A stretch of 64,000 bases of DNA from Cladochytrium replicatum (lineage: Eukaryota > Chytridiomycota > Chytridiomycetes > Cladochytriales > Cladochytriaceae): NCBI GenBank assembly GCA_025526935.1, contig JAHLKD010000074.1, forward strand, positions 186,001 through 250,000. Direction: 5' to 3'. The number at the start of each line of letters is the position of its first letter. The first letter of the stretch is position 1. Position numbers and translations under genes: made by a program. Under the pieces are notes generated by a model. The model saw only the letters and a list, made by a program, of their open reading frames with translations, searched no databases and was not told where the DNA came from. This document shows positions 7,257 through 61,625 of this stretch, in pieces.

Positions 7257-9154
7257 GTAAGGTTAGGCGGGTCTGGGTCGGGCCGGGTTTCAGTGGTGAC
7301 CCGCACCAAACCCTTTGGGTCGGGTCGTGTTTGTCTGGGGACCCGCCGGGTCACTGACGGGTACAAAGGGAATACCCGGACCCGAAGTGGTTGAAACCCG
7401 TACCCGACCCTGACCCGCCGGGTTTTTGCTGCCCAGGAGAGGATTGATTGAATTTTGAGTTATACCACGGATATTTACATGAACACTTTGTGTCTGTGTG
7501 GACAGTGTGTATTTTAGAAACACTATCGTAAAAAGAAACAAAACTCCACTGAGCAATCACAAGTTGATAGGTGGAACAGCCCAAATCAGCTTCTGTATCT
7601 GGTTCATATCGTCAGAGTCCCATCCACCACTGGTTACGTCCTTTGCCAACCCAGTCCTGATGAACCGATCAATGTCGTCATTTGAAAGCATGAAATCCTT
7701 GGCTAAACCTGTCTTCCAAGGTTTCCAATCCACCTCAGGGAGCGTTATGGACGAAAGATGCCCGATGTATGCCGTCCAGAACCTTAGCCACTCAGAAGGA
7801 TAAGCATCCACTAATGCCCTGAACATGCGATAGATAGTGGCAGACGTACTTAGCGAATTATTGTGCCGTATCCAGTTTCCGAGCAAAATGTGCACCCTAA
7901 GAAGAGTAAGGCTGCTCCGAGAACTGCTACTTGAAGTTGATATTCGGCTTGAGCGGTCGTCTGATTCAACAAATATGGGCCGTAAAAACTCATTTCGGGA
8001 GAGGACTTCGTAGTTTACGTTGACATACTTGATTGATGGTGGAAGAGACGGCAATTTAAGGTCATAAATAACCTCATTGATCTTATGCATCTGGAAGCAG
8101 ATACCCTGGATGACCTCTTTCACCAAAAGGATAGCCGTACGACGGTGCTGCTGCAGGCTAAGCAATGCAAGGGAACTTGTTGGAGAACTGGTTCGATGTA
8201 CCTTCGGAATTCTACCAATCCCCTTGATAGCCGACGATATGCTTATTAGGCCGCCTGTTGATGTTGGCGCCGCAGGTGCTGCGGCTTCTGAATGACCAGC
8301 CTGTCGTTTCAGAGCAGCAAGCTCTCCCTCCAGGGCGGTCACACGTGATTTCCATTGTGAAATCTCCTGGGAAGTTGCCTGCTTCTCCCTTTCCATTGCA
8401 GCGGTGATCTCCCTGAATCTTGCTAGCTCTTCGTGCTCGCCGTGCTGAATCAATGCACCCGCCCTGCCCAATTCATCAATGAGAGCCTTCTCTCGCACTT
8501 CTGCTGCGATGCGGGTCCTTCTCTCGTTCATTGCAGTCTCTTCAAGATCTTTTGTCATGTTCAACAGTCGTTCTGACTGTTTGAGGACCTGTTTTGTCCT
8601 TTCACGGTCCTCATCTGCTCGTTTGATGGTCGCTTGGAACTCGTCAACCTTTGCAGTGACGGGCATTCCTCTGTAAATGCCGTACTTGTGTCCCTGCCGC
8701 CTGTAAAAGTCCAGAAATGTTGTTTCCTTCTGAAAGGAAGAGCTTTTCAAGCACTCCATACGATAGGCGTTTGCTGCTGTTATGAACTCCGTTCGTCCAC
8801 TGCATTCATCGTGAATTTCGTTCAGGGCTTGACGAACTAGCTTGCTGTCAGAGTTAAGTCGGTCGATCAACCCTTGAAGAACAAATCTTGGGCCGCATTC
8901 ATCACGATTTGTTTGACAGTTGCTGATGAAGTCCTCCGAGTCGTAGCTGTGGCCGCTTGCTTTGAATTTTCGATACCAAAGTCGTATGTCTGAAGCAGGA
9001 CAGAGTCCGTCGATGAGCAAATAGTCAGCATCCCCTTTGGTACCACGTCGCGCCGGTTTCTTTGAAGGAGCTGTCGATTTGACATCTGTCGATTTGACAT
9101 CAAGGCCAACTTCTGCTTCTTCCACTTCAGAACCCGATCCCAGAGATGTTTCAG
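7257..9154 (-). mobile_element. Composite hAT element, copy A: left terminus plus accessory ORF only
   Basis: This stretch is almost identical to 11438-13338 of the full element. It starts with the same terminal sequence (taaggtt-ggcgggtc, then GGGTC-rich DNA) and contains 520-odd codons of the accessory ORF (stop at 7557). Similarity stops abruptly at 9154, inside the ORF's N-terminal region, so the first about 40 codons, the spacer array and the transposase are missing. Only a few substitutions separate it from copy B, so the duplication is recent. The remaining reading frame is uninterrupted. Confidence 0.8.
7557..9154 (-). pseudogene. Accessory ORF of composite hAT element, 5'-truncated copy
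   Basis: Same protein as the ORF at 11738-13420 but lacking its start and the first about 40 residues. It retains the conserved N-terminal region (ADYLLIDGLCPASDIRLWY), the central coiled coil and the C-terminal region ending AVPPINL. No internal stop is seen up to the breakpoint. Without its own start codon and promoter it is probably not expressed, unless a downstream ATG is used. Confidence 0.6.
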
Positions 9155-10190
9155 GTGGCTCATACGGTGGGAATGGATACGCTGCGTATGATATAAGTTT
9201 GGCTGCGCATTACTGGCAAAAAGTGAACTTTTAGCTCGTTATGTCAGGAGTATGGGGAAATGGTGAATCAGATAGGTGAACGAGGCAAACTAATGATTGT
9301 TCAGTTTGCGCTAACTTACTGTCAGTCCCAAAAGACCCCGCAGCTTTGTATCCATATGTCGAGGGCGTCACAATCATTTGTGAGCATGCGTATATTCTGT
9401 TCCAAGGCATACTCGAGGGGTTGTTGTTGGGCACGCCTGGAAGAGTGGTGGCAAGGCTCGGATGGAAACGATGGTGGAGAGGGTTGCGGGTGTCGGGGAC
9501 GTCATGGAGGTTGTTGGGGGGTTGTTGGACAAAAAGGAGGTGTTATGAGGTTGCATTGGCAACGAGAACCGGTACAGGCAATTTTGTGTTGACACGATAT
9601 TAGTGTAATACACCAATCGTTTTAAGTCTGTGTCCTTCTTGTTGTATTTTTGATATGTTTTGTAAATGTAAGTTCGGGATGCGTATGATCAGGTGATAAC
9701 ATCTAGTTGACCTCATCTTGTAAGGCAACAGCAACAGCCGGAAAACGTTGTTATGCCTGGAATGCGGCGACCAGCTCCCATTCCGTATGTTAGTTCTCTG
9801 AACATACCCCGAAAGCGGTGTTTGATGCTGGCGTTTTCCCTGAGGTATAGCTGGACCTTGATATTTTGAGCCATATTGGGGAAGCAGCTCATGTTTTGTA
9901 TAAACCTAAAATTGGAAGGAGCAAAAAAAGGCACGATGAGCAAAGACTACTTGGCTGGGATTCAATATGAAGTGCCAGGTGCAAAAGTGTGTTAGGAATC
10001 GGTTGCCTAATTCAAAATCCTAAGCTTCAATATCAACCAATCTGCTGCTTGCTCCAATATCAACCAATCTGCTGCTCTTGGTGTGGTCACTCGTTCATTT
10101 CTCAAATATGATCAGCAATTCCAATAAAACAACATAGGCTTTTACTATCACGGTGCAATTATTATTGAATATGTACACCCAAGTTTGATC
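9155..10190. other. Gap between mobile copy A and the acidic-tailed gene; no confident gene
   Basis: On the plus strand 9334-9500 a stretch reads LYPYVEGVTIICEHAYILFQ with a hydrophobic, gene-like composition after a possible acceptor (ctgtcag), but it has no start and no recognised family. On the minus strand 9940-9713 a short open frame shows nothing familiar. At 10027-10075 a 24-base unit (caatatcaaccaatctgctgct) occurs twice in tandem. Confidence 0.25.
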
Positions 10191-11435: not shown

Positions 11436-11600
11436 CCTAAGGTTCGGCGGGTCCGGGTCGGGTCCGGGTTTCAGTGGCGACCCGCACCAAACCCTTTGGG
11501 TCGGGTCGTGTTTGTCTGGGGACCCGCCGGGTCACTGACGGGTACAAAGGGAATACCCGGACCCGAAGTGGTTGAAACCCGTACCCGACCCTGACCCGCC
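11436..11600. repeat. Left terminal inverted repeat and GGGTC-rich subterminal DNA
   Basis: Begins cctaaggttcggcgggt and continues with multiple gggtc/gggtcc pentamers, then the complementary gacccg clusters to about 11600, so the region can fold on itself. The same design is seen at 7257-7425 and, decayed, at 57594-57765. Confidence 0.6.
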
Positions 11601-11737
11601 GGGTTTTTGCTGCCCAGGAGAGGATTGATTGAATTTTGAGTTAGACCACGGATATTTACATGAACACTTTGTGTCTGTGTGGACAGTGTGTATTTTAGAA
11701 ACACTATCGTAAAAAGAAACAAAACTCCACTGAGCAA

Positions 11738-13420
11738 TCACAAGTTGATAGGTGGAACAGCCCAAATCAGCTTCTGTATCTGGTTCATATCGTCAGAGTC
11801 CCATCCACCACTGGTTACGTCCTTCGCCAACCCAGTCCTGATGAACCGATCAATGTCGTCATTTGAAAGCATGAAATCCTTGGCTAAACCTGTCTTCCAA
11901 GGTTTCCAATCCACCTCAGGGAGCGTTATGGACGAAAGATGCCCGATGTATGCCGTCCAGAACCTTAGCCACTCAGAAGGATAAGCATCCACTAATGCCC
12001 TGAACATGCGATAGATAGTGGCAGACGTACTTAGCGAATTATTGTGCTGTATCCAGTTTCCGAGCAAAATGTGCACCCTAAGAAGAGTAAGGCTGCTCTG
12101 AGAACTGCTACTTGAAGTTGATATTCGGCTTGAGCGGTCGTCTGATTCAACAAATATGGGCCGTAAAAACTCATTTCGGGAGAGGACTTCGTAGTTTACA
12201 TTGACGTACTTGATTGCTGGTGGAAGAGACGGCAATTTAAGGTCATAAATAACCTCATTGATCTTATGCATCTGGAAGCAGATACCCTGGATGACCTCTT
12301 TCACCAAAAGGATAGCCGTACGACGATGCTGCTGCAGGCTAAGCAATGCAAGGGAACTCGTTGGAGAACTGGTTCGATGTACCTTCGGAATTCTACCAAT
12401 CCCCTTGATAGCCGACGATATGCTTATTAGGCCGCCTGTTGATGTTGGCGCCGCAGGTGCTGCAGCTTCTGAATGACCAGCCTGTCGTTTCAGAGCAGCA
12501 AGCTCTCCCTCCAGGGCGGTCACACGTGATTTCCATTGTGAAATCTCCTGGGAAGTTGCCTGCTTCTCCCTTTCCATTGCAGCGGTGATCTCCCTGAATC
12601 TTGCTAGCTCTTCGTGCTCGCCGTGCTGAATCAATGCACCCGCCCTGCCCAATTCATCAATGAGAGCCTTCTCTCGCACTTCTGCTGCGATGCGGGTCCT
12701 TCTCTCGTTCATTGCAGTCTCTTCAAGATCTTTTGTCATGTTCAACAGTCGTTCTGACTGTTTGAGGACCTGTTTTGTCCTTTCACGGTCCTCATCTGCT
12801 CGTTTGATGGTCGCTTGGAACTCGTCAACCTTTGCAGTGACGGGCATTCCTCTGTAAATGCCGTACTTGTGTCCCTGCCGCCTGTAAAAGTCCAGAAATG
12901 TTGTTTCCTTCTGAAAGGAAGAGCTTTTCAAGCACTCCATACGATAGGCGTTTGCTGCTGTTATGAACTCCGTTCGTCCACTGCATTCATCGTGAATTTC
13001 GTTCAGGGCTTGACGAACTAGCTTGCTGTCAGAGTTAAGTCGGTCGATCAACCCTTGAAGAACAAATCTTGGGCCGCATTCATCACGATTTGTTTGACAG
13101 TTGCTGATGAAGGCCTCCGAGTCGTAGCTGTGGCCGCTCGCTTTGAATTTTCGATACCAAAGTCGTATGTCTGAAGCAGGACAGAGTCCGTCGATGAGCA
13201 AATAGTCAGCATCCCCTTTAGTACCACGTCGCGCCGGTTTCTTTGAAGGAGCTGTCGATTTGACATCTGTCGATTTGACATCAAGGCCAACTTCTTCTGC
13301 TTCCACTTCAGAACCCGATGCCAGAGATGTTTCAGGTGCAGTCACAGGTTCTGCACTTGATTCTCTTTCAGATGATGGTCTGGATTGTTTTAACGCTCGC
13401 TTCTTTGTAGTTCGAGGCAT
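11738..13420 (-). CDS. Accessory ORF of composite hAT element, unknown function, coiled coil
   Basis: Intact 560-codon ORF downstream of the transposase on the same strand. Residues 1-70 are basic/Ser-rich with a repeated VKSTDVKST. Residues about 75-190 form a conserved-looking domain (ADYLLIDGLCPASDIRLWY, FISNCQTNRDECGPRFVLQ) with spaced Cys residues, then TFLDFYRRQGHKYGIYRGMP. About 200-310 is a charged heptad-rich coiled coil (MTKDLEETAMNERRTRIAAE). A Ser-rich linker follows, then a C-terminal helical domain with aromatic residues (WLRFWTAYIGHL, VDWKPWKTGLAKDFM) ending AVPPINL. I do not recognise the family. The ATG at 13420 was chosen because upstream sequence resembles an untranslated leader. 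It is the only unbroken ORF in the element and recurs in three other copies. Confidence 0.7.
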   Translation of the reverse strand: MPRTTKKRALKQSRPSSERESSAEPVTAPETSLASGSEVEAEEVGLDVKSTDVKSTAPSKKPARRGTKGDADYLLIDGLCPASDIRLWYRKFKASGHSYDSEAFISNCQTNRDECGPRFVLQGLIDRLNSDSKLVRQALNEIHDECSGRTEFITAANAYRMECLKSSSFQKETTFLDFYRRQGHKYGIYRGMPVTAKVDEFQATIKRADEDRERTKQVLKQSERLLNMTKDLEETAMNERRTRIAAEVREKALIDELGRAGALIQHGEHEELARFREITAAMEREKQATSQEISQWKSRVTALEGELAALKRQAGHSEAAAPAAPTSTGGLISISSAIKGIGRIPKVHRTSSPTSSLALLSLQQHRRTAILLVKEVIQGICFQMHKINEVIYDLKLPSLPPAIKYVNVNYEVLSRNEFLRPIFVESDDRSSRISTSSSSSQSSLTLLRVHILLGNWIQHNNSLSTSATIYRMFRALVDAYPSEWLRFWTAYIGHLSSITLPEVDWKPWKTGLAKDFMLSNDDIDRFIRTGLAKDVTSGGWDSDDMNQIQKLIWAVPPINL

Positions 13421-13570
13421 GGTGTTTGTACTGTTTGTCGTGGGAAGATACTGGCCCGGTGTTCTTAGCCGGAATGTTACAGGAATGTATGCTATAATAC
13501 TTCCCTGGACACTATAGTTTTCTATCCGATCTGAAAATAATAATAAGCTAGGGAAGAAACTGGCTAGTAA

Positions 13571-13990
13571 CATTGATAGAGAGGATTCTGTCCGGGTGGA
13601 CAGAATCTTATTGCTAGTAAAATTGATAGAGAGGTTAGCTGTACTTGATAGAGATCACTGAAGTACCGTCAATGAGTTGAGAAAGTGTCCGGGTGGACAG
13701 AATCTTATTGCTAGTAACATTAATAAAGAGGTTAGCTGTACCTGATAGAAATTACTGAAGTACCGTCAATGAGTTGAGAAAGTGTCCGGGGGGACAGAAT
13801 CCTATTCTACCCAGACAGACACAGTGACACTCAGTCTCCCAGATTTCTGTCCACCCGGACACTTTCTCAACTCATTGACGGTACTTCACTGATACTTCAC
13901 TGATCTCGATCAAGTACAACCAACCTCTCTACAAATACTACTTGTAATAGGATTCTGTCCAGGCGGTCGCTTTCTCAACTCCTGGACGGT
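13571..13990. repeat. 98-base repeat array between transposase and accessory ORF, with an inverted copy
   Basis: Two and a bit direct units starting tgtccgggtggacagaatc, containing the attgctagtaacattgatag core and ending gtaccgtcaatgagttgaga, are followed at about 13848-13985 by copies in the opposite orientation. Each unit contains the perfect inverted repeat TGTCC-GGGT-GGACA. Confidence 0.75.
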
Positions 13991-14027
13991 ACTTCAACAG
14001 ATGAACAGTCTAAACAACAATTTATAT

Positions 14028-16462
14028 TTAAAAGAGTGGGTTATCATCAGTTGCTTCCAACTCTAATACCACATCAAAATCCTCGCCAAAATTATGCACC
14101 TTTACAAAATCCTCACTAACATCACTTTTTGAATCTAGGGAATCATTTTTGAACGGTTCTTCAGCACTCAATTGATGCAACCAGTCATGACGGCACATCA
14201 ACGCATTTATTGTTCTTGGAGCAAGGCGGTTGCGAGTTGCAGGTACCAAATCAACCCCGGCTGAAAACTTTCGTTCGACTGGAGCGCTTGTTGCTGGTAT
14301 TCCTAAATAGTCCATTGCCATCTGGCTTAGGGCTGGAAAGTTCACACTTCCAACAGTCTTCCACCAGTCCATAATATTGATTGGCTTCCCATCAGAATCA
14401 ATACCGCGGAGTACCTGATCGCCAAGATAGCGATCCAGCTCATCTTTTTCCTCAGGAATCTCTTCTTGCCAGATGAAAACGGATCTAATGGCTCTCAAGC
14501 GTTCAGCGTCCGTTTTTTTCTGTCTATCACTGGAAGCTCCGCTCGAATCGTGTCGACGTTCTGGCGTGTTTCCAAAAACATCGGCACCACTGTTCTTGAT
14601 TTTCCGTGACTTATACGATTCCTCCCAGACTTTCCGCACTAGGGTGACCTGATCCCTTCCTACATCTTTCTCCCAAGCCTTTGAAAATCGATAATATTGA
14701 TCCTTAAAACGAGGATCGAGTACCGTAGCAACTGCTAAACACGGGCTCTTAGCGATTGAGTAATATATTCTCAGCTTATCTAGTGCATTTCGAAATGCTT
14801 TGGTGAAAGTTTCATCTAATTCTGCATCCTCTAGGTCCTCCAGTTGATCGATAAGATCGTTGTAAAATGGAATAACAAGCGGAAGTGTTGGATATCTAGA
14901 CCCTTCGATTGCCTTTGATATAACCTCGAAAACACTCAAACCATCCCGGATCTTCTGTAGGACCTCCCATTGCTTTGGATTTATTGACCAATCTTTCAAA
15001 GAATCTTCAATCCAGCATATTTTGTCCATTGCCTCTCGTAGCTGTAAGGCTCGTTTGACCATATAGAACGTGCTATTCCAGCGAGTTGTCACATCGATAA
15101 TTGGTAATAGAGGAACCAGTTTCACAAATCGGCACGAATCAATAAATGAGCTTCGTCGTTTTGGGGAAGACCGGATTCCTCTGACTAGCCGTCGAAGAAG
15201 GTTTATGACATTAACGCCGGAGTTATCGTCATTTGCGACTGTGTCCCCTGCGGGCGCGAATGTATCGATAAAATCCTTTGCTGCAAGATTGATAATGTGT
15301 GCCATACACCGCATGTGTTGAGTTTCTGCAGACCACGCAATATCCCTATCTTCCAAGAGCGTCTCCAGCTTAGCACTCATGGTAAAGTTGTTTGAACCGT
15401 TGTCGGTTGTAATGCACAATAAGCGTCACCCGATAGCATGCCAAATTCATCCAGACACTTGACAAGCTGACTAGCCATGGCGACGCCTTCATGCTTTCCA
15501 ACCATCGGAATCATCTGCAGCAGCAAGTCCTGCGGCTCCCATTCTTTCGTGATGAAGTGGGCAGTAATTCCAAGAAAAGAAATCTGGTTCTTCGATGTCC
15601 AACAGTCAGCTGTTATTGATACTTTTGAAGGCGAACCAACAATCAGACCTTTAATGAGCTCCTTCTGCCTATCGTAAAGATCCATCTCCTTTTGCTTCAC
15701 TGCTTTTGCCGTCTTTGGTGTATAGTTTGGCTGAAAAGTCTTCAGCATGCTGACAAAGAACTCGTTCTCCACAACAGTAAAAGCCTGATTGTCTGCAGCA
15801 ATCCAGTCCAAAATCGACCGCCACGCTACGTCTGGATTGAACACAAAGTTTTGCTCCTTCTCCTGCGAGCCAAAATTCAATGTCTGTTGTCCCTTGGGGA
15901 CGATGTCCAACAGTCCAAGCGACCTGGCAATACTTCCATGGTGGTTTTTCAGATGCCGGAGGAAGTTTTTTGTTGATCCCGTCTTATTGACCTTCTGGCT
16001 CCACTTGCATTTCGCAACCAAACATGTTCTCAGACCATTATCAACCTTATAGTAATCCTTCGCTATGCCGCCTCGACTACCTCTACAGTCCGACATGCTA
16101 TCAACATCTGCGTCTGATGAAAGCATTGATGGTTGAACTGATCCAGCTGCAGGCTCCTGTCGCACTGAAGAGTCAGCAAAACTAACGTCGGCAGGAAGCT
16201 GTGGTGCATGCTGAGAAGCCGGGCCCAACTCGCTGGAGTCATTGGAAGAAGATGTGGAGCTCGGCTCTCAAGCGCTGTTGTTGCCACCGTGTCCTGATAC
16301 ACGTCTGCGTTTGTCCTGCATGATGTTCCCCTCGCTGGACGCCTCTGAAATTTGGGGGGCTGGCAGACTTCGCTTCCGTGTGTCAAGCGGATGACTGTCC
16401 ACCAGTCTTTGGCTTGCGTCGGACGCTGCCTTACGCTTTGGTTTAACAAAGGCGGCGTCCAT
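14028..16462 (-). pseudogene. hAT transposase with BED-type zinc finger, disrupted
   Basis: A DDE/RNase H-like transposase of about 800 codons. Its parts are an N-terminal basic region (16462-16271), a BED-like zinc finger near 16060-15940 (CKWSQKVNKTGSTKNFLRHL, then KNHH), the segment SITADCWTSKNQISFLGITA near 15610, TTDNGSNNF with the following HMRCMAHIINLA near 15400-15300, VTTRWNSTFYMVKRAL near 15080, and the C-terminal hAT dimerisation domain (YLGIPATSAPVERKFSAG) near 14270. Two lesions are seen: an in-frame TGA at 16270-16268, and a 4-base loss near 15423 compared with the copy at 61000, which shifts the frame between LSG and LLCITTDNG. The copy is therefore probably inactive, although the protein halves are otherwise well preserved. 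Confidence 0.88.
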
Positions 16463-16577
16463 TTTTGCTGTGGTGTGGCTGGAACGTTACCGACTCTAAT
16501 GTCCAGGTGCACAGAAAGCACAGCTCTCGAGGTCTGTCGTGGTAGAAATTGTTTGTTACAGAACTTCCGTTGTGACT

Positions 16578-17095
16578 TCTTGGAAAGTGTCCGGGTGGAC
16601 AGAATCGTATTGCTAGTAACATTGATAGAGGTTAGTTGTACTGGGTAGAGATAACTGAAGTACGTCAATGAGTTGAGAAAGTGTCCGGGTGGACAGAATC
16701 TTATTGCTAGTAACATTGATAGAGATGTTAATTTGTACTTGATAGAGATCACTCAAGTACCGTCAATGAGTTAAGAAAGTGTCCGGGTGGACAGAATCTT
16801 ATTGCTAGTAACATTGATAGAGAGGTTAGCTGTACTTGATAGAGATCACTGAAAGTACCGTCAATGAGTTGAGAAAGTGTCCGGGTGGACAGAATTTTAT
16901 TGCTAGTAACATTGATAGAGATGTTAGTTGTACTTGATAGAGATCACTCAAGTACCGTCAATGAGTTAAGAAAGTGTCCGGGTGGACAGAATCTTATTGC
17001 TAGTAACATTGATAGAGAGGTTAGTTGTATTGGGTAGAGATAACTGAAGTACGTCAATGAGTTGAGAAAATGTCCAGGTGGACAGAAAATACATG
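16578..17095. repeat. 98-base tandem array upstream of the transposase
   Basis: Units begin at about 16582, 16680, 16779, 16877, 16976 and 17069, a period of 93-99 bases. Each starts gtgtccgggtggacagaat and ends gtcaatgagttgagaaa. The repeated TGTCC-N4-GGACA palindrome makes these plausible protein-binding sites. The array may include the transposase promoter. Confidence 0.8.
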
Positions 17096-17214
17096 CCTCG
17101 ATGTCCGTTGTGATGCAAAATTGTTTGATACATACAAAACTTATATTGCGTCTTCTTGGAAAGTGTCCGCGTGGACAGAAAGAACAATAGCTTCATTTTA
17201 GATTCTCTATCACA

Positions 17215-17389
17215 TCGGGTTTTACTCGGGTCTGACTTTTGACCCGAGAAGGGTTTTCCTACTGGACCCAATACCCGACCCGGATCCGACCCGAAAATTT
17301 TCCATGAAAACCCGGCACTCGGGTCTGGTACATTTAGTCAATGGACCCGGACCCGACCCGAAAGCCCCTAAAACCCGCCGATCCTTAGG
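17215..17389. repeat. Right terminal inverted repeat and GACCC-rich subterminal DNA
   Basis: The last 17 bases are the inverse of the left end with one or two mismatches. Inside it, gacccg/cgggtc clusters occur from about 17215, including several gacccgacccg runs, mirroring the left side. These are likely transposase binding or structural sites, by analogy with other hAT subterminal repeats. Confidence 0.6.
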
Positions 17390-19068: not shown

Positions 19069-20063
19069 CTAAACTGGGGGTCCAATGACACAAGCAGCAC
19101 ACGAAGTAACAAAGGACAAAATAATATCCAATGCAGAGTCAATACATCCCTGTGCAACATCCACAGACATTTGGGCAAAGGCGGGAGCTTCTAAAATTGG
19201 ACTGAGTGCAGCATTGACATCAGCAAGGGTGGGATCAAAAAACAAATGTCCCACATCCTCCATTGCTTGAAAGACAGCAGGTTCACGGAACAGATGAGCA
19301 GCCCAGCGCTTGTAGGGGGGTGCAGCAGAGGGAGCGCTGGCATTGGGAGGAGCAAAAGAAAAAACAGCTGTAACCGGAAAATGGTCAGAAGCCCAAGGCA
19401 TAAACTCGCCGTCGGCTAGACGACTATGAACTATGTAAGAAATAGGATCACATTGAAGCAGAGGATTGACAAACAACAAATCGATAATGGAGTCACCATT
19501 GCGAGAAGAAAATGTGGGGCTATGACAGGAAGGGTGCTTAACTAAAGAGAAACTAGCGGCACAAATAAATTGCTCAAACAACCTACCCCTACGATTTGAA
19601 GAATGATCACCAGTAGCTAAAAAACGGGCATTGAAATCGCCCAACAAAAGAACAGGGCACGGAGACGACGGGACATGATGAGGAAGTGAAGCAATAAATT
19701 CTTCAAGGAAGGGGTCCTGAGCAATACCACACGGAGGCAAATAATACCCTCCAACCAAAAGCCCACGAAATGTAAACCATAGAGAGGTGCCACCATAACT
19801 AGAAACGAGACGGAAATCAGGAGCTCTACAAAGACTGCGATTGATCAAGACTCCCACACCAGCCCGTCGTGTACCCGATGACCCAGGAGAAAAACGAGTG
19901 TCAAAAATCAAATCTGGAGAAGGCAGCGGGTTAAAGGAAAAAGGTGTGTTTCAGTCAGGAGCAGAAAAACAATGTGATTTGCGCGCATAAAACGAAACAG
20001 TGAATCAAGAACTCCAAAGCTCAAATTGCGACAATTGAAGGTACCAACTCGAACATTAATCAT
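19069..20063 (-). pseudogene. LINE ORF2 endonuclease domain, frameshifted
   Basis: Exonuclease-endonuclease-phosphatase fold. ATG at 20063 gives VGTFNCRNLSF and LLLTETHL (the catalytic Glu motif); then a frame break near 19925. The main frame (19911-19069) keeps LLLGDFNARF, SIIDLLFVNP and ASDHFPVTA, corresponding to the GDFN, Ser/Thr-x-x-Asp and SDH catalytic motifs. The frame shift and the missing reverse transcriptase mark it as inactive. Confidence 0.8.
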
Positions 20064-22781: not shown

Positions 22782-23334
22782 CTCTCCTTTCACCAAAAGG
22801 ATAGCCATACAACGGTGCTCTGCAGGCTAAGCAATACAAGGGAACTGGTTGGAGAACTGGTTTGATGTACCTTCGGAATTCTACCAATCCCCTTGATAGC
22901 CAGCGATATGCTTATTGGGCCGCCTGTTGATGTTGGCGCCGCAGGTGCTGCAGCTTCTGAATGACCAGCCTGTCGTTTCAGAGCAGCAAGCTCTCCCTCC
23001 AGGGCAGTCACACGTGATTTCCATTGTGAAATCTCCTGGGAAGCCGCCTGCTTCTCCCTTTCCATTGCAGCAGTGATCTCCCTGAATCTTGCTAGCTCTT
23101 CGTGCTCGCCGTGCTGAATCAATGCACCCGCCCTGCCCAATTCATCAATGAGAGCCTTCTCTCGCACTTCTGCTGTGATGCAGGTCCTTCTCTCGTTCAT
23201 TGCTTTTTCTTCAAGATCTTTTGTCATGTTCAACAGTCGTTCTGACTGTTTGAGGACCTGTTTTGTCCTTTCACGGTCCTCATCTGCTCGTTTGATGGTC
23301 GCTTGGAACTGGCCAACCTTTGCAGTGACAGGCT
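22782..23334 (-). mobile_element. Composite hAT element, copy C: internal fragment of the accessory ORF
   Basis: A 550-base piece closely matching the coiled-coil and linker region of the accessory ORF (MTKDLEEKAMNERRTCITAE to the Ser-rich linker), with substitutions at roughly one base in 25. It carries neither terminus nor transposase. Both ends break into unrelated sequence. Confidence 0.8.
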
Positions 23335-28897: not shown

Positions 28898-31817
28898 CTA
28901 CGCTCTGATGTCCTTCAACCTGACCAAAACCGCATTCCTGTGCGCATCAAGCCCCTCCACAGCCGCAAGCGTCGCAACCGTGTCTCCCAACCCATCCAAC
29001 CCTGCCCTTGTCAACCTCTGCGACGTCACATGCTTCACAAACGTGTGCGTGTTTACGCCAGAATACATCCTCGCAAACCCATACGTCGGCAAAGTGTGGT
29101 TTGTCCCCGAAGCATAGTCTCCGCAACTGAAATAGAAATCAATAAATAAATTTGGAGAAGGGCGGAGTGTATCGTTTACCTTTCGGGCGACCAGGGGCCA
29201 ACAAACACGCTCCCGGCGTTCTGCACGTCCTTTACGACACCCTCGGCGTCCCCAAGGTGCAAAATCAAATGCTCGGGCGCCCACTCGTTCGAGAACGCCA
29301 TAGCTTCAGCGACGGTGTCCACAACGACTGTGAACGAGCTCGAGATCGCGGCGCGGGCGATCTCAGCGCGTGGGAGCGCCTCGCCCTGGACTTTGACTTG
29401 TTGCTCGATGGCGGAGAGCTGGGATTGCGAGAGTCCGACGGCGATGAGAACGACTTGGGAGTCAACGCCGTGCTCAGCTTGCGAGAGGAGGTCCGCGGCG
29501 ACGTAGGCGGGGTTCGCGGAAGGGTCGGCGATGACGAGGACTTCGGACGGACCTGCGGGCATGTCGATCGAGACAAGGGCCGAAGTGTCGTTCTTAAGAA
29601 AACAGTAACTCATGAGCATGCGGATGAGGAGTACAAACGTGGGGGTTGTACCTGGATCATCATCTTTGCCGCTGTCACGTACTGGTTACCTGGACCGCAG
29701 ATTTTGTCAACCTTGGGTACCGTCTGCGTCCCGTACGCCATCGCAGCAACGGCTTGCGCACCTCCCGCTAGCACAACGGTACTTGCACCAATCTTATCCG
29801 CGACATACAAAACCTCGGGACACACAGACCCGTCCTTTCTCGGCGGTGTAGCGACCACAATCTCCTTGCATCCCGCCACTTTCGCAGGCACACCCAGCAT
29901 CAGCGTCGTCGAGGGCAGCACCGCCGTGCCGCCGGGGACATATATCCCAACCTTTTCAATCGGTCTCACGAATCGCTCGCAGACCACTCCGGGCATCGTC
30001 TCGACCCGAAGCACCTCGTCGGAATCCAGCTGGGCTGCATGGAACGCGTGGATGTTGTGGTACGCAAGGTCGATAGCCTTCTGCACTCCGGGTTCGAGAC
30101 GCATTAGGGACGGGTCGAAGGGCGCGCGGAGGGTCGGTGTTGGAAGAGTGACCTGGTCGAACTTGGAAGTAAACTCCAGCACCGCGGCGTCACCCTCCGC
30201 GCGGACTTTCTGCAGAATCGGAGAGACCCGGTTCATGATCTCGGAGGTGTTCATGATGGGTCGCTGGAGGAGCTTCTTCCGCTGCTCGGGCGACACCTCG
30301 CTGAGCCTGTACGTGGTCAGACTGAAGTCCTGCACTTTCGTGATCGGTTTCACCACGTCGGAAGGTTTAGGCACCACAACGCTTTTCTGCGGGGCAGAAA
30401 AAGCACCGCCATTGACGTACTTGGGTTTCGCGTCCCCAGCACGCCTCGTCACCTTTTTGTTCCTTCTCTCCAACTGTTTCTCGACATCCGCAAGCGTTAC
30501 ACCGGAAACGACGCATCGCACAAGTGCAAAGTAGATCAGATCAGCGGCTTCCCATGCGACCTCCTCCTGCGTCTTCGCGTCGCAAAGCTCTTCGGCCTCC
30601 TCGATGATCTTGGCGCGGAGGAGGGATGGGTCGTCGAATAGCCGTTTGGTGTAGGATCCCGCGGGAGCAGACGACTTGCGTGCGGCGAGGAGTTCGGCGA
30701 GGGCGGAGATGCCGGCATCGGAGCCGAAACAGGTGCGGGTGTTCAAATGGCAGAATCCTGAAAAGTAAAATGGAAGAGTAAGAGGAAAGGAGTTCAGACG
30801 AGTGTCAGATCAATAAATGGTGTTTGAACACTTCATTGCTGTGGTGACGAATTAGAATCGGACTTCCCGCCAATGTTCGCACACCACCACTCCAGGTTCA
30901 AGGGATCAGCTGCCCACAAGCGTATCACACGGATGATCACCTGGTGACTTTTGCTCAACGACAAAGCGCAACGAGTCGCGGTCGCAGTCCGCGCGGATCT
31001 GTACAAGTTTCTGCGTCGCCCCCGACGTCGCGCCTTTGTACCACAGTCCACGGGTGCGAGACTGGTACACTCCGGCTTGAGTCCTAATGCTCTCAGCGAT
31101 ACTCTGTCGAGAGGAGTATACCAGCCCCAGCGCAACGCCGACTTTATCCACGACCACGGTCGCATACAATCCGTCCGGACGATCCGTTTCCAAGCACGCA
31201 GTGAAGGCGTCCGCGAAGAACACAAGGGAGGTGTCGGTTGATCCCGAAAGAGCGATGTTGACGCTATCGAGAACGACGGAAATGTTTCTGGCGTCGAGCT
31301 CAGCGATGAGTTCCACGGCTGGGGAGGTGTCGAACTGAACGAGAACGGCGCCGGTGTCGCCGAGGGGTTTGGAGAGATTGGAAGCTGTCGAGAGCCAGGA
31401 TGCATTTGTTGCGCGGAACCACACGGTCGACGCGTAGGCCTTCGCAGAGTCAATGAACGCTACGGTATCTGATTCGGATGCGATGGGTTTGGCGAGGTAA
31501 GCGAAGACGAGTCGATCTGCTGGAACACCTTCGAATTGGGAAGGGTTGACTAGTTGCGGAACGGAGAGGGGAATGACAACCTTTGCAGCGCCAGCATCAA
31601 GGACGTCGATGATTTCAGAGGAGGTGGAATCAGATGAGAAGTTGGGTAGTACGACTAATGAATTGGTGAGGTTGAGATTTGCGTTGAGCAATGCAGACAG
31701 AGCATCTTGCGAGTCGGGTTGAATGATGGCATCGGAAACGATATTGTATGCGGAGAGCAAAGACGAGAGAGCGTCTTTCTGCGAAGAAGTCGAGAAGGTG
31801 AGAGACGGCACGAGCAT
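28898..31817 (-). CDS. HIS4: Trifunctional histidine biosynthesis protein (PRA-CH / PRA-PH / histidinol dehydrogenase)
   Basis: Catalyses steps 2, 3, 9 and 10 of histidine synthesis in the cytosol. Four exons: 31817-30941, 30757-29652, 29592-29180 and 29126-28898, joined in phases 1, 0 and 2, giving 874 residues (yeast HIS4 has 799). After a fungal-type N-terminal domain, the HisI part shows [20 protein letters not shown] and the CDRDSLRF zinc motif (about residues 200-290). The HisE part follows ([20 protein letters not shown], with EEAEEL and WEAADLIYF; about 300-385). The HisD part carries [61 protein letters not shown] and [20 protein letters not shown]. All three activities look intact. 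The ATG at 31817 begins the open frame. Confidence 0.96.
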
Positions 31818-46884: not shown

Positions 46885-48330
<1,446 letters not shown>

Positions 48331-57593: not shown

Positions 57594-57899
57594 GATTCAG
57601 CGGGTCTGAGTCGGGTCTAGGTCGGGTCTGGGTTTCAGAGGCGACCCTAATAAAAACCCTTATTTTGCGTCATGTTTGTCCAGGCACCTGCTGGGTCACT
57701 GCGGGTGGGAGTGGTATACCCGGAAAGTTGTTGAAACCTGTGCCCGACCCTGACCCTCCAGGTTTTTGCTGGTCAGGAGAGGAGAAATTGAACTTGAGTT
57801 GGAACACACTTGATATTTACATAAACACGTGTCTGTGTGGACAGTGTGATATTTACAAACACTATCGCAAAGATGTACAAAACTCCACTAAACAATCAC

Positions 57900-59370
57900 A
57901 AGTTGATTGGTGGAACAGCTGATTCATATCGTCAGAGTCCCATCCACCACTGCCAACCCAATCCGGATGAGCCTATTGATGTCGTCATTTGAAAGCATGA
58001 AATCCTTGGCCAAACCTGCCTTCCAAGTTTCCAATCCAACTTAGGGAGCGTTATTGAAGACAGGTGCTTGATGTATGCCATCTAGAAGCTTAGCCACTCA
58101 GAAGGCTACGTATCCACTAATGCTGTGAACATGCAATATATAGTGGCAGACATAGTTTGCGAATTGTTGTGCCGAATTTGCACCCTAAGAAGAGTAGGGC
58201 CGCTCCAAGCACTACTACTTGAAGTTGATGTTTGGCTTTAGCGTTCGTCAGATTCAACAAACATGGGGTGTAAGAACTCATTTTGGGAGAGGATTTTGTA
58301 GTTGACATTGACAAACTTGATTGATGGTGGTAGAGACGGCAATTTAAGGTCATTAATAACTTCATTGATCTTATGCATCTGGAAGCAGATGTCCTGGATG
58401 ACCTCTTTCGCCAAAAGGATAGCCGTACAGGTGCTGCTGAAGGCTAACCAATGCAAGGGAACTGGTTAGAGAACTGGTTTGTTGGACCTTGGGAATTCTA
58501 CCAATCGCCTTGATAACTGACCAGATGCTTCTTGGGCTGCCTGTTGATGTTGGCGCTGCAGGTGTAGCTGCTTCTGAATGACCAGCCTGTTGTTTCAGAG
58601 CAGCAAGCTCTCCCTCCAGGGCAGTCACACGTGATTTCCATTTTGAAATTTCCCGGGACGCCACCTGCTCTCCCTTTCCATTGCAGCAGTGATCTTTTAT
58701 CATGTTCAACAGTTGTTCTGGCTGTTTGAGGACCTGCTTTGTCCTTTCACGGTTCTCATCTGCTCGTTTGATGGTCGCTTGGAACTCGTCAACCTTTGGA
58801 GTGACAGGCATTCCTCTGTAAATTTCGCACTTGTGTCCCTGCTGCCTGTAAAAGTCCAGGAAGGTTGTTTCCTTCTGAAAGGAAGACATTTTTTCAAGCA
58901 CTCCATGATAAGTGTTTGATGTTATGAACTCCATTTGTCCACTGCATGCATCGTGAATTTCATTCAGGGCGACAAGCTTGCTTGCTGTCAGAGTTGTGTG
59001 GGTTGATCAAACCTTGAAGAAAATATCTTGGGCTCATTCATCACGATTTGTGACAGTTGCTGATGAAGTGCTCTGAGTCGTAGCTGTGGCCGCTTGCGTT
59101 GAATTTTTGATACCATAATCGTATGTCTGAAGCAGGACAGAGTCTGTCAATATGTAAATAGTCAGCATCCCCTTTGGTACCACGTTGCACCGGTTTCTTT
59201 GAAGGAGCAGTCGATTTGACATCAAGGCCTACTTCTGCTTCTTCCACTTCATCCCAGAGTTGTTTCAGGTACAGTCACCGGTTCTGCACTTGATTCTCTT
59301 TCAGATGATGGTTTGGATTGTTTCAAAAGCTCGCTTCTTTTGTAGTTCGAGGCATGGTGTTGGTAATGTA
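57900..59370 (-). pseudogene. Accessory ORF of hAT copy D, broken
   Basis: Matches the accessory protein across its length (for example KKPVQRGTKGDADYLHIDRL near 59190, TFLDFYRQQGHK near 58850, SRVTALEGELAALKQQAGHS near 58610, NEVINDLKLPSLPP near 58350) but with frameshifts, stops and lost segments. It helps show which parts of the protein are conserved. Confidence 0.8.
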
Positions 59371-59789
59371 TGTTGTGGGAAGATACTGGCCTGGCGTCTT
59401 AGCCAGAATGTTCAAGGAATGTATGCTATAATACTTCCATACCACTATACCTATAGTTATCTACCCAACATGACAATAATAATAAGCAAGGGAAGAAACT
59501 TATCTACCCAGACACAGTGACACTCAGTCTCAATGCTCCTTTGCTGCATTTCCACTCCCAATTACTTGCTATGCTGGTCTTTGAAGAAGCAAGGCTCTTT
59601 GCTTTGGTGGGAGCGGCTCAGTTGGCGATGCCAGTGAGGTGACCTCACTGCTGCCTTCTCAACTCATTGACGGTACTTCAGTGAACTCCTACCAAATATA
59701 AGCAGCCTCTATCAATGTTACTAGAAATAGGATTCTGTCTACCTGGACACTTTCCCAACTCATTGACAGTACTTCAGCTATCTCTACCC

Positions 59790-61615
59790 AAAAATTATGC
59801 ACCTTTGCAAAATCCTCACTAACATCACTTTTTGAATCTAGGGAATCATTTTTGAACGGCTCTTCAGCACTCAATTGATGCAACCAGTCATGATGGCACA
59901 TCAAAGCATTTATTGTTCTTGGAGCAAGGTGATTGCGAGTTGCAGGTACCAAATCAACCCTGGCTAAAAACATTGGCTTCCCATCAGAATCAATAGCGCG
60001 GAGTACCTGATTGCCAAGATAGCGAGCCAGTTCATATCTTCTTGCCAGATGAAAACGGATCTGATGGCTCTCAAGCGTTCAGAGTCCGTTTTTTTCTGTC
60101 TATCACCGGAAGGTCCGCTGGAATTGTGTCGACGCTCTGGTGTGTTTCCTAAAACATAGACACCACTGTTCTTGATTTTCCGTGACTTACACGATTCCTC
60201 CCAGACTTTCTGCACTAGGGTGATCTGATCCCTTCCTACATGTTTCTTCCAAGCCTTTGAAAATCAATTATATTGATCCTTAAAAACAAGGATCGAGTAC
60301 TGTAGCAACTGCTAAACACAGGCTCTTAGCGATTGAGTATATATTCTCAGCTTGTTTAGTGCATTTCGAAATGCTTTGCTGAAAGTTTCATCCAATTCTG
60401 CCTCCTCTAGGTCCTCCAGTTGAACAATAAGATTGTTGTAAAATGGAATAACAAGCAGAAGTGTTGGATATCTAGACTCCTCGATTGCCTTTGATATAAC
60501 CTCGAAAACACTCAAACCATCCCGGATCTTCTGTCGGACCTCCCATTGCTTTGCGTTTATTGACCAATCTTTCAAAGAATCTTCAGCATATTGTGTCCAT
60601 TGCCTCCCGTAGCTGTAAGGCTCGTTTGACCATATAGAACGTGCTATTCCAGCGAGTTGTCACATCGATAATTGGTAATAGAGGAACCAGTTTCACAAAT
60701 CGGTACAAATCAATAAATGAACTTCGTTGTTTTGGGGAAGACCGGATTCCTCTGACCAGCCGTCGAAGAAGGTTTATGACATTAACGCCGGAGTAATCGA
60801 CATGTGCGACTGTGTCCCCTGCAGGCCCGAATGCATCGATAAAACGCTTTTCTGCAAGATTGATAATGTGTGCCATACACTGCATGTGTTGAGTTTCTGC
60901 AGACCACGCAATATCCCTATCTTCCAATAGTGTCTCCAGCTTAGCACTCATGGTAAAGTTGTTTGAACTTTGTCGGTTGTAATGCACAATAAGCGTTCAC
61001 CACCTGATAGCATGCCAAATTCATCCAGACACTTGACAAGCTGATTAACCATGGCGAGGCCTTCATGCTTTCCAACCATCGGAATCATCTGCAGCAGCAA
61101 GTCCCACGGCTCCCATTCTTTCATGATGAAGTGGGCAGTAATTCCAAGAAAAGAAATCTGGTTCTTTGATGTCCAACAGTCAGTTGTTATTGATACTTTT
61201 GAAGGCGAACCAACAATCAGACCTTTAAAGAGCTCCTTCTGCCTATCGTAAAGATCCATCTCATTTTGCCTCACTGAGTTTGCCGTCTTTGGTGCATAGT
61301 TTGGCTGAAAAGTCTTCGGCATGCTGACAAAGAACTCGTTTTCCACAACAGTAAAAGCCTGATTGTCTGCAGCAATCCAGTCCTAAATTGACCGCCACGC
61401 TACATCTGGATTGAACACAAAGTCTTGCTCCTTCTCCAGCAAGCCAAAATTCAATGTCTGTTCTCCCATGGGTCCGGTGTCCAACAGTCCAAGTGACCTG
61501 GCAAAACTTCCATGGTGGTTTCTGAGATGCCGGAGAAAGTGTTTTGTTGATCCTGTCTTGTCGACCTTCTGGCTCCACTTGCATTTCGCAGCCAAACACG
61601 TTCTCAGTCCATTAT
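59790..61615 (-). pseudogene. hAT transposase of copy D, broken
   Basis: It keeps the BED finger (CKWSQKVDKTGSTKHFLRHL near 61580-61530), SITTDCWTSKNQISFLGITA, the HMQCMAHIINLA block, VTTRWNSTFYMVKRAL and the NALMCHHDWLHQLS tail. It contains several stops and frameshifts and lacks the central part of the dimerisation domain. It retains the GGERLL bases that are missing from copy B near 15423. Confidence 0.85.
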
Positions 61616-61625
61616 CAACCTGTGG

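Follow-up and report, generated by a model that had tools for sequence, protein, structure and literature searches.

A young two-gene hAT transposon of Cladochytrium replicatum with a second gene of no recognised family and variable palindrome arrays upstream of both genes

Transposons of the hAT superfamily, such as Hermes, Ac and fungal hAT elements, have in common a Dimer_Tnp_hAT domain, short terminal inverted repeats (TIRs) and an 8-bp target-site duplication (TSD). Second element-encoded proteins are found in other superfamilies, for example MURB of MuDR and TNPA of En/Spm, the latter of which binds a repeated subterminal motif. The subject of this report is a hAT DNA transposon of the chytrid fungus Cladochytrium replicatum (assembly GCA_025526935.1; 50.5 Mb, 198 contigs), one copy of which lies in a stretch of 64,000 nucleotides (hereafter the window; positions 186,001-250,000 of contig C74, JAHLKD010000074.1). 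This element is young, shares the features listed above with other hAT elements, and differs from them by a second gene of no recognised family, here called ORFx (open reading frame x), and by two arrays of 97-bp units. A preliminary description of the window had termed it a composite transposon, which is misleading, because a single pair of ends bounds a single element.

Published examples of fungal hAT elements with a second gene already exist. According to the available excerpts of the source, a TET/JBP gene is present in twenty hAT7 families from six species of Puccinia (PMC12730594). They resemble the present element in being fungal hAT elements with a second gene, possibly one directed against methylation, whereas they have a 7-bp TSD and a TET/JBP enzyme (PMC12730594); the TSD here is 8 bp, and no TET/JBP domain is listed for ORFx among Pfam matches up to E 1. 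ToxhAT of wheat-pathogenic fungi is likewise a fungal hAT-type element with another gene; it differs in its length of about 14 kb and in that the gene, ToxA, is effector cargo (PMC12506042, in excerpt). The earlier remark that hAT elements are usually single-gene therefore needs a qualifier. For MarorhAT-10, an element of 3,396 bp, a hAT transposase domain is reported in the excerpted text (PMC9674265).

The closest worked example for the regulator proposed below, by analogy, is VANC of the VANDAL elements. In the excerpts available, VANC binds a short motif, and its targets are arranged as tandem repeats differing from one related copy to the next (PMC5735166). VANDAL is similar to the present element in the short motif, in the variable-number tandem repeats in noncoding DNA and in the extra protein besides the transposase; however, it is MuDR-type and not hAT, and VANC carries DUF1985/DUF287 (PMC5735166), neither of which is listed for ORFx in Pfam up to E 1. 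Binding and hypomethylation have been shown for VANC (PMC5735166), whereas both would be putative activities of ORFx. No description of a hAT element with an orphan second gene and arrays was found in the open-licence literature, Repbase not being covered. What is new here is the presence of 97-bp palindrome arrays, in variable number, upstream of both genes.

The transposase gene and ORFx form one mobile unit, a conclusion that we regard as nearly certain because complete copies bear identical 8-bp flanks. Twenty-five loci were read, namely 20 regions (up to 10 kb) around the top-scoring ORFx copies, including the window copy, and five extra regions (L033-L037) picked for a transposase and a right end without a listed ORFx. 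The left end, transposase, ORFx and right end follow in that order in 18 of the 25, comprising 13 of the 20 top-scoring regions, where all lie on one strand, and all five extra regions; the ends thus enclose both genes and do not flank the transposase only. Seven of these 18 complete copies (L014, L015, L020, L022, L028, L030 and L036) have identical 8-bp flanks, and 11, including the window copy (CCTTCACC / GGCACGGC), have unmatched ones, so that the window copy has no TSD. Among the remaining top-scoring regions, L017, L024, L025 and L031 contain transposase, ORFx and right end; L029 and L032 have the transposase inverted beside ORFx, L032 with a second ORFx in the usual order; and L023 has ORFx and the right end only. 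The linkage between ORFx and hAT termini asserted in the preliminary description is strongly supported: the right end directly follows ORFx in all 20 top-scoring copies fetched, of the 78 listed, and transposase sequence adjoins ORFx in 19 of them (17 on the same strand, two inverted). Full copies measure 5.9 to 7.6 kb and are ordered as TIR, CGGGT-rich end, array, hAT transposase, array, ORFx, CGGGT-rich end and TIR; in intact copies, both frames are intronless, with 811 codons for the transposase and 560 for ORFx.

Across the genome, 78 ORFx copies were scored among 1099 first-look candidates, and 40 of each hAT end were scored from 396 left and 456 right first-look candidates. A listed hAT transposase lies upstream on the same strand within 6 kb in 50 of the 78 ORFx copies, both lists being lower bounds. 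The other 28 include L023, L029 and L032 of the fetched set; reading upstream of three more revealed most of a transposase in L043, a deleted transposase in L044 and no transposase in L042, described below, and for 22 of the 28 the context is known from the listing alone. Of the right ends that were scored, 40 in all, 19 immediately follow a listed ORFx and 32 have a same-strand hAT within 8 kb; one of the eight right ends that have no listed hAT has a listed ORFx. Outside a hAT context, ORFx was found, among the copies read, only in L023, where the right end is present, and in a fragment in the window. The four places at which ORFx was said to recur in the window are real and unequal, one being intact; three are linked to hAT ends, and no end was found for the fragment at 22787-23333.

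L027 and L033 lie on one contig in opposite orientation and have exchanged 8-bp flanks (GCCGTATC and GCCAGTAC), a sign of recombination (inversion or exchange) between two copies, and the unmatched flanks of the window copy may reflect a similar history. In L029 and L032, ORFx half-elements are joined to the opposite-orientation transposase through inverted 97-bp arrays, and rearrangement seems to be favoured by these arrays. In L042 (G000:C79:130500-134000) the transposase is deleted, and a short array connects ORFx to a hAT left end. L016, L019, L025 and L035 are situated beside or inside other copies, with an array, end or ORFx in their flanks, and form self-nesting clusters. L016 and L030, on two contigs, have the same 12-base left flank, ttaattccggtc, which suggests a duplicated segment.

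The assignment of the transposase to the hAT superfamily is supported by its C-terminal dimerisation domain, together with the 8-bp TSD and short TIRs. Dimer_Tnp_hAT (PF05699) matches the window copy, in which the gene is split over frames, at E 1e-20 (73.7 bits; cut-off 21.4) and the intact L022 copy at E 2.2e-20 (72.7 bits; cut-off 21.4). Of the initial six TSD-bearing copies, five have a single 819-codon frame, which gives 811 amino acids from the first Met. The sequence also matches the Hermes transposase (phmmer, E 2e-12), and the alignment spans the stretches TADCWTS, RWNST and ERKFS, two of them weakly, which may hold the DDE catalytic residues. Scores of the RNase-H model, 25.1 and 23.6 bits, are under the cut-off of 27. 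The preliminary description had recognised a BED-finger hAT transposase; the hAT part stood, whereas zf-BED reaches 12.3 bits against a Pfam cut-off of 20.6 in the window copy and does not appear among the matches of the intact L022 protein up to E 1. The BED zinc finger is common, not universal, in the superfamily.

The 560-codon second frame reported earlier is open from its ATG (13420-11741), and its assignment to no recognised family was borne out, as ORFx exceeds the cut-off of no Pfam family and matches no PDB sequence. Pfam matches up to E 1 are weak and mostly to coiled-coil families, and the best PDB sequence has an E of 0.94 (chain sc-apCC3-CW-2NTT). In close-relative, single-protein queries of IMG/VR, three pattern-matched stretches for ORFx and one for the transposase were obtained, none of which was confirmed by tblastn. 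At low confidence, ORFx is predicted to consist almost entirely of helix, the central helices being long, as would suit a coiled coil. The AlphaFold models are unusable, with a mean predicted local distance difference test score (pLDDT) of 40.8 for ORFx (a shallow alignment of 10 rows) and 38.5 for its C-terminal 211 residues alone. The cysteines of the N-terminal domain noted previously are present (Cys 80, 108, 115, 146 and 163), although no listed zinc-finger model matches them.

Upstream of both genes are 97-bp units, each with the 14-bp palindrome TGTCC-N4-GGACA. The array before the transposase has one orientation; the intergenic array is mostly inverted, and its last three units, adjoining ORFx, return to the first orientation. 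Six TSD-bearing full copies contain 14, 18, 24, 25, 26 and 27 exact palindromes, and the window copy contains 11, which are all 11 of the window; no exact palindrome remains in the decayed copy at 57602-61622. The distance from hAT to ORFx rises by steps of about 97 bp across copies. A 20-mer around the palindrome has 2758 matches in the genome with at most one mismatch, compared with 0 for a reversed control. When units from 24 loci and the window were anchored on either flank (217 units each time), the palindrome columns were conserved at 0.94-1.00, while the non-anchored flank dropped as low as 0.47-0.51 with either anchor. These flank-anchored counts were used in place of a count of motif-picked units, which is biased toward the motif.

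The near-full copies that are >99% identical (24 ORFx, 21 transposases) make up a young set, with a median pairwise difference of 0.12% for ORFx and 0.21% for the transposase. Frames are open in 20 of 24 ORFx and 19 of 21 transposases, fractions that must be lower in the whole family because most young loci were picked by high ORFx score. With its near-identical copies, intact frames and perfect TSDs, the family is plausibly a live system. The distinct changes of the young set are most often C-to-T at CpG (ORFx, 14 of 27; transposase, 25 of 62). Per position, 14 of 166 CpG sites of ORFx are affected, compared with 1 of 651 other cytosines; the corresponding figures for the transposase are 25 of 234 and 3 of 898. 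Such an excess is the mark of 5-methylcytosine deamination, not of repeat-induced point mutation at CpA. Because copies are decayed at CpG, silencing probably acts on the family.

Selection was assessed by counting distinct changes against numbers of nonsynonymous, synonymous and stop changes expected under CpG-aware rates, with binomial P values. Older ORFx copies have 179 nonsynonymous, 103 synonymous and 8 stop changes, where 198.1, 76.7 and 15.1 are expected (omega 0.67, P 0.001), which favours modest constraint on the predicted protein. A short-ORFx subfamily was considered and rejected, because the junction of the internal deletion in the window copy near 58 kb does not recur at that position in the other copies found by probe; the junction probe gave no match in L039. 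A shared frameshift lineage of L033 and L034 was rejected as well, as their insertions differ.

A role of ORFx in transposition, silencing evasion or target choice, as raised in the preliminary description, is an inference. We tentatively propose, at somewhat short of an even chance, that ORFx is an element-encoded regulator acting on the arrays, similar to VANC in logic and not in family, and in logic also to TNPA of En/Spm, because dimer-type sites, expandable arrays, a predicted coiled-coil protein and methylation-type decay fit together. In this proposal, the transposase would recognise the CGGGT-rich ends and cut and paste the element, and ORFx would form a dimer or higher oligomer via its predicted central coiled coil. 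Directly or with a partner, it would act on TGTCC-N4-GGACA upstream of both genes as a trans-acting, sequence-specific activator or anti-silencer, keeping the element promoters active despite CpG methylation and silencing, and changes in the number of array units would adjust the response. That ORFx acts through the arrays is a claim we make with similar reserve. If it does, hAT elements, like VANDAL of the MuDR group, would carry their own regulator and expandable target sites. It is doubtful, and would be the more specific outcome, that a hAT element independently evolved anti-silencing in which ORFx binds the palindrome and shields CpG-methylated copies or opens them again, a convergence with the logic of plant VANC by means of unrelated components; if true, anti-silencing would have arisen outside plants, using a new protein. 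Even without a role of the arrays, the element is a clean case of a fungal hAT with a second gene of no recognised family.

Several observations weigh against a regulator acting on the arrays. No DNA-binding domain is recognised in ORFx (Pfam up to E 1). The older transposase copies, with 148 nonsynonymous, 58 synonymous and 8 stop changes, give an omega of 1.01, that is, no constraint; since constraint is expected on the transposase, the test is blunt. Taken singly, 13 older ORFx stretches give omega values between 0.18 and 1.98, and changes in related old copies share ancestry and are not independent. In the young ORFx copies omega is 0.57 with P 0.11, and shared changes are too few (two nonsynonymous, three synonymous). 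An intact transposase accompanies a broken ORFx in six of the 25 loci (L028 and L033-L037). Three different insertions break the frame in L033, L034 and L035, and the first part of ORFx is deleted in L036 and L037. L028 and L036 nevertheless have matching 8-bp flanks, so that ORFx is either dispensable in cis or was disrupted only once the element had inserted. As for the arrays, the 20-base stretch to the left of the palindrome is itself conserved, over much of its length, at 0.94-0.99 in right-anchored units, and the conservation of units may reflect recent amplification and homogenisation. Finally, the centre of the palindrome contains CGGGT, a 5-mer also enriched at the hAT ends, and the array palindromes and the CGGGT-rich ends are not cleanly separate classes of sites.

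Somewhat unlikely, in our estimation, is that ORFx is a transposition cofactor that works with the transposase at the ends or arrays, in synapsis, nuclear import or target choice, and not as an anti-silencer. Its constant linkage inside hAT ends and its predicted coiled coil are consistent with this, as are isolated palindrome sites (exact or near matches) outside the arrays of L020 and L022, at distances of about 210 bp (left end) and 247 bp (right end). On the other hand, hAT transposases generally suffice alone, the arrays lie upstream of genes and not only at the ends, and L036 has matching flanks despite the loss of about the first 210 residues of ORFx, a deletion that may be later than the insertion. 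There is a precedent for a cofactor in the Harbinger-type Nuwa families, which, in the excerpts available, have two proteins, the second being Myb/SANT (PMC12730594).

We consider it unlikely that the transposase binds the arrays while ORFx acts elsewhere, for example on a component of host silencing or RNA interference, without binding element DNA. The CGGGT shared by the palindrome centre and both hAT ends implies that the transposase itself may bind the arrays; moreover, ORFx has no recognised DNA-binding domain, and the CpG decay indicates that there is probably silencing to be acted upon. Against this, ORFx too is preceded by arrays, and the full palindrome is absent from the left terminal 200 bp of six copies, the first site being at 208-304.

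There is little to make us expect that ORFx is a captured host or foreign passenger gene without benefit to the element. Gene capture is known among transposons, several elements persist with a broken ORFx, and the lack of a Pfam family above cut-off, of a PDB relative and of a confirmed close relative in IMG/VR would fit such a capture. However, ORFx is open in 20 of 24 young copies, has an omega of 0.67 in older ones, is intronless, is preceded by the element's arrays, and is found at the corresponding position of the decayed copy (57602-61622), which means that it predates the young burst. We think it quite probable that ORFx encodes a protein useful to the element. That two adjacent transposons or repeated nested insertion mimic one element, as the unmatched flanks of the window copy and 10 of the 17 other complete copies and the nesting seen might suggest, is refuted by the seven complete copies in which identical 8-bp flanks enclose both genes and can be given next to no credence.

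Coordinates are given in Table 1. The element had been placed at 11436-17389; it is real, and its TIR-bounded extent is 11438-17387. The 15-bp TIRs, inverted between both ends, have the consensus TAAGG[A/T]TCGGCGGGT.

Table 1. Positions of the element, its parts and related copies (window numbering unless a contig is named)
Feature	Position	Strand	Basis or detail
Whole hAT element, 5950 bp	11438..17387	-	Alignment to complete copies and TIRs, sequence
Left TIR TAAGGATCGGCGGGT	17373..17387	-	
Left subterminal region, CGGGT-rich	17178..17387	-	L022 copy: 14 CGGGT, both strands, per 210 bp
5' array, upstream of transposase	16588..17177	-	Palindrome starts 16588, 16682, 16780, 16878, 16975, 17071, 17164
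hAT transposase gene, frame broken in window copy	14028..16462	-	
Array upstream of ORFx, shorter than in other copies	13589..13861	-	Palindrome starts 13589, 13686, 13783, 13848
ORFx, 560 codons, intact, intronless	11738..13420	-	ATG at 13420, open to 11741, stop 11738-11740
Right subterminal region, CGGGT-rich	11438..11737	-	L022 copy: 15 CGGGT, both strands, per 300 bp
Right TIR TAAGGTTCGGCGGGT, inverted	11438..11452	+	
Second copy, 5'-truncated: ORFx from residue 25 and hAT right end	7258..9157	-	98.9% identical
Internal ORFx fragment, 548 bp, residues about 193-350	22787..23333	-	No hAT end found
Old decayed copy, transposase then ORFx, same order as young copies	57602..61622	-	ORFx 57602-59500; decayed transposase upstream to 61622; degenerate right end (79%)
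L027 / L033	G000:C101:187948-197827 / 172300-179450		

Elsewhere in the window, a LINE-type retroelement endonuclease domain (PF14529, E 7e-13) lies at 19069-19950 on the minus strand, and an ORF at 47326-48252, also on the minus strand, has a very long poly-aspartate run built by a 9-bp minisatellite. At 29610-30809 is a histidine-biosynthesis fusion ORF that joins PRA-PH and histidinol dehydrogenase, presumably a HIS4-like fusion of the fungal type.

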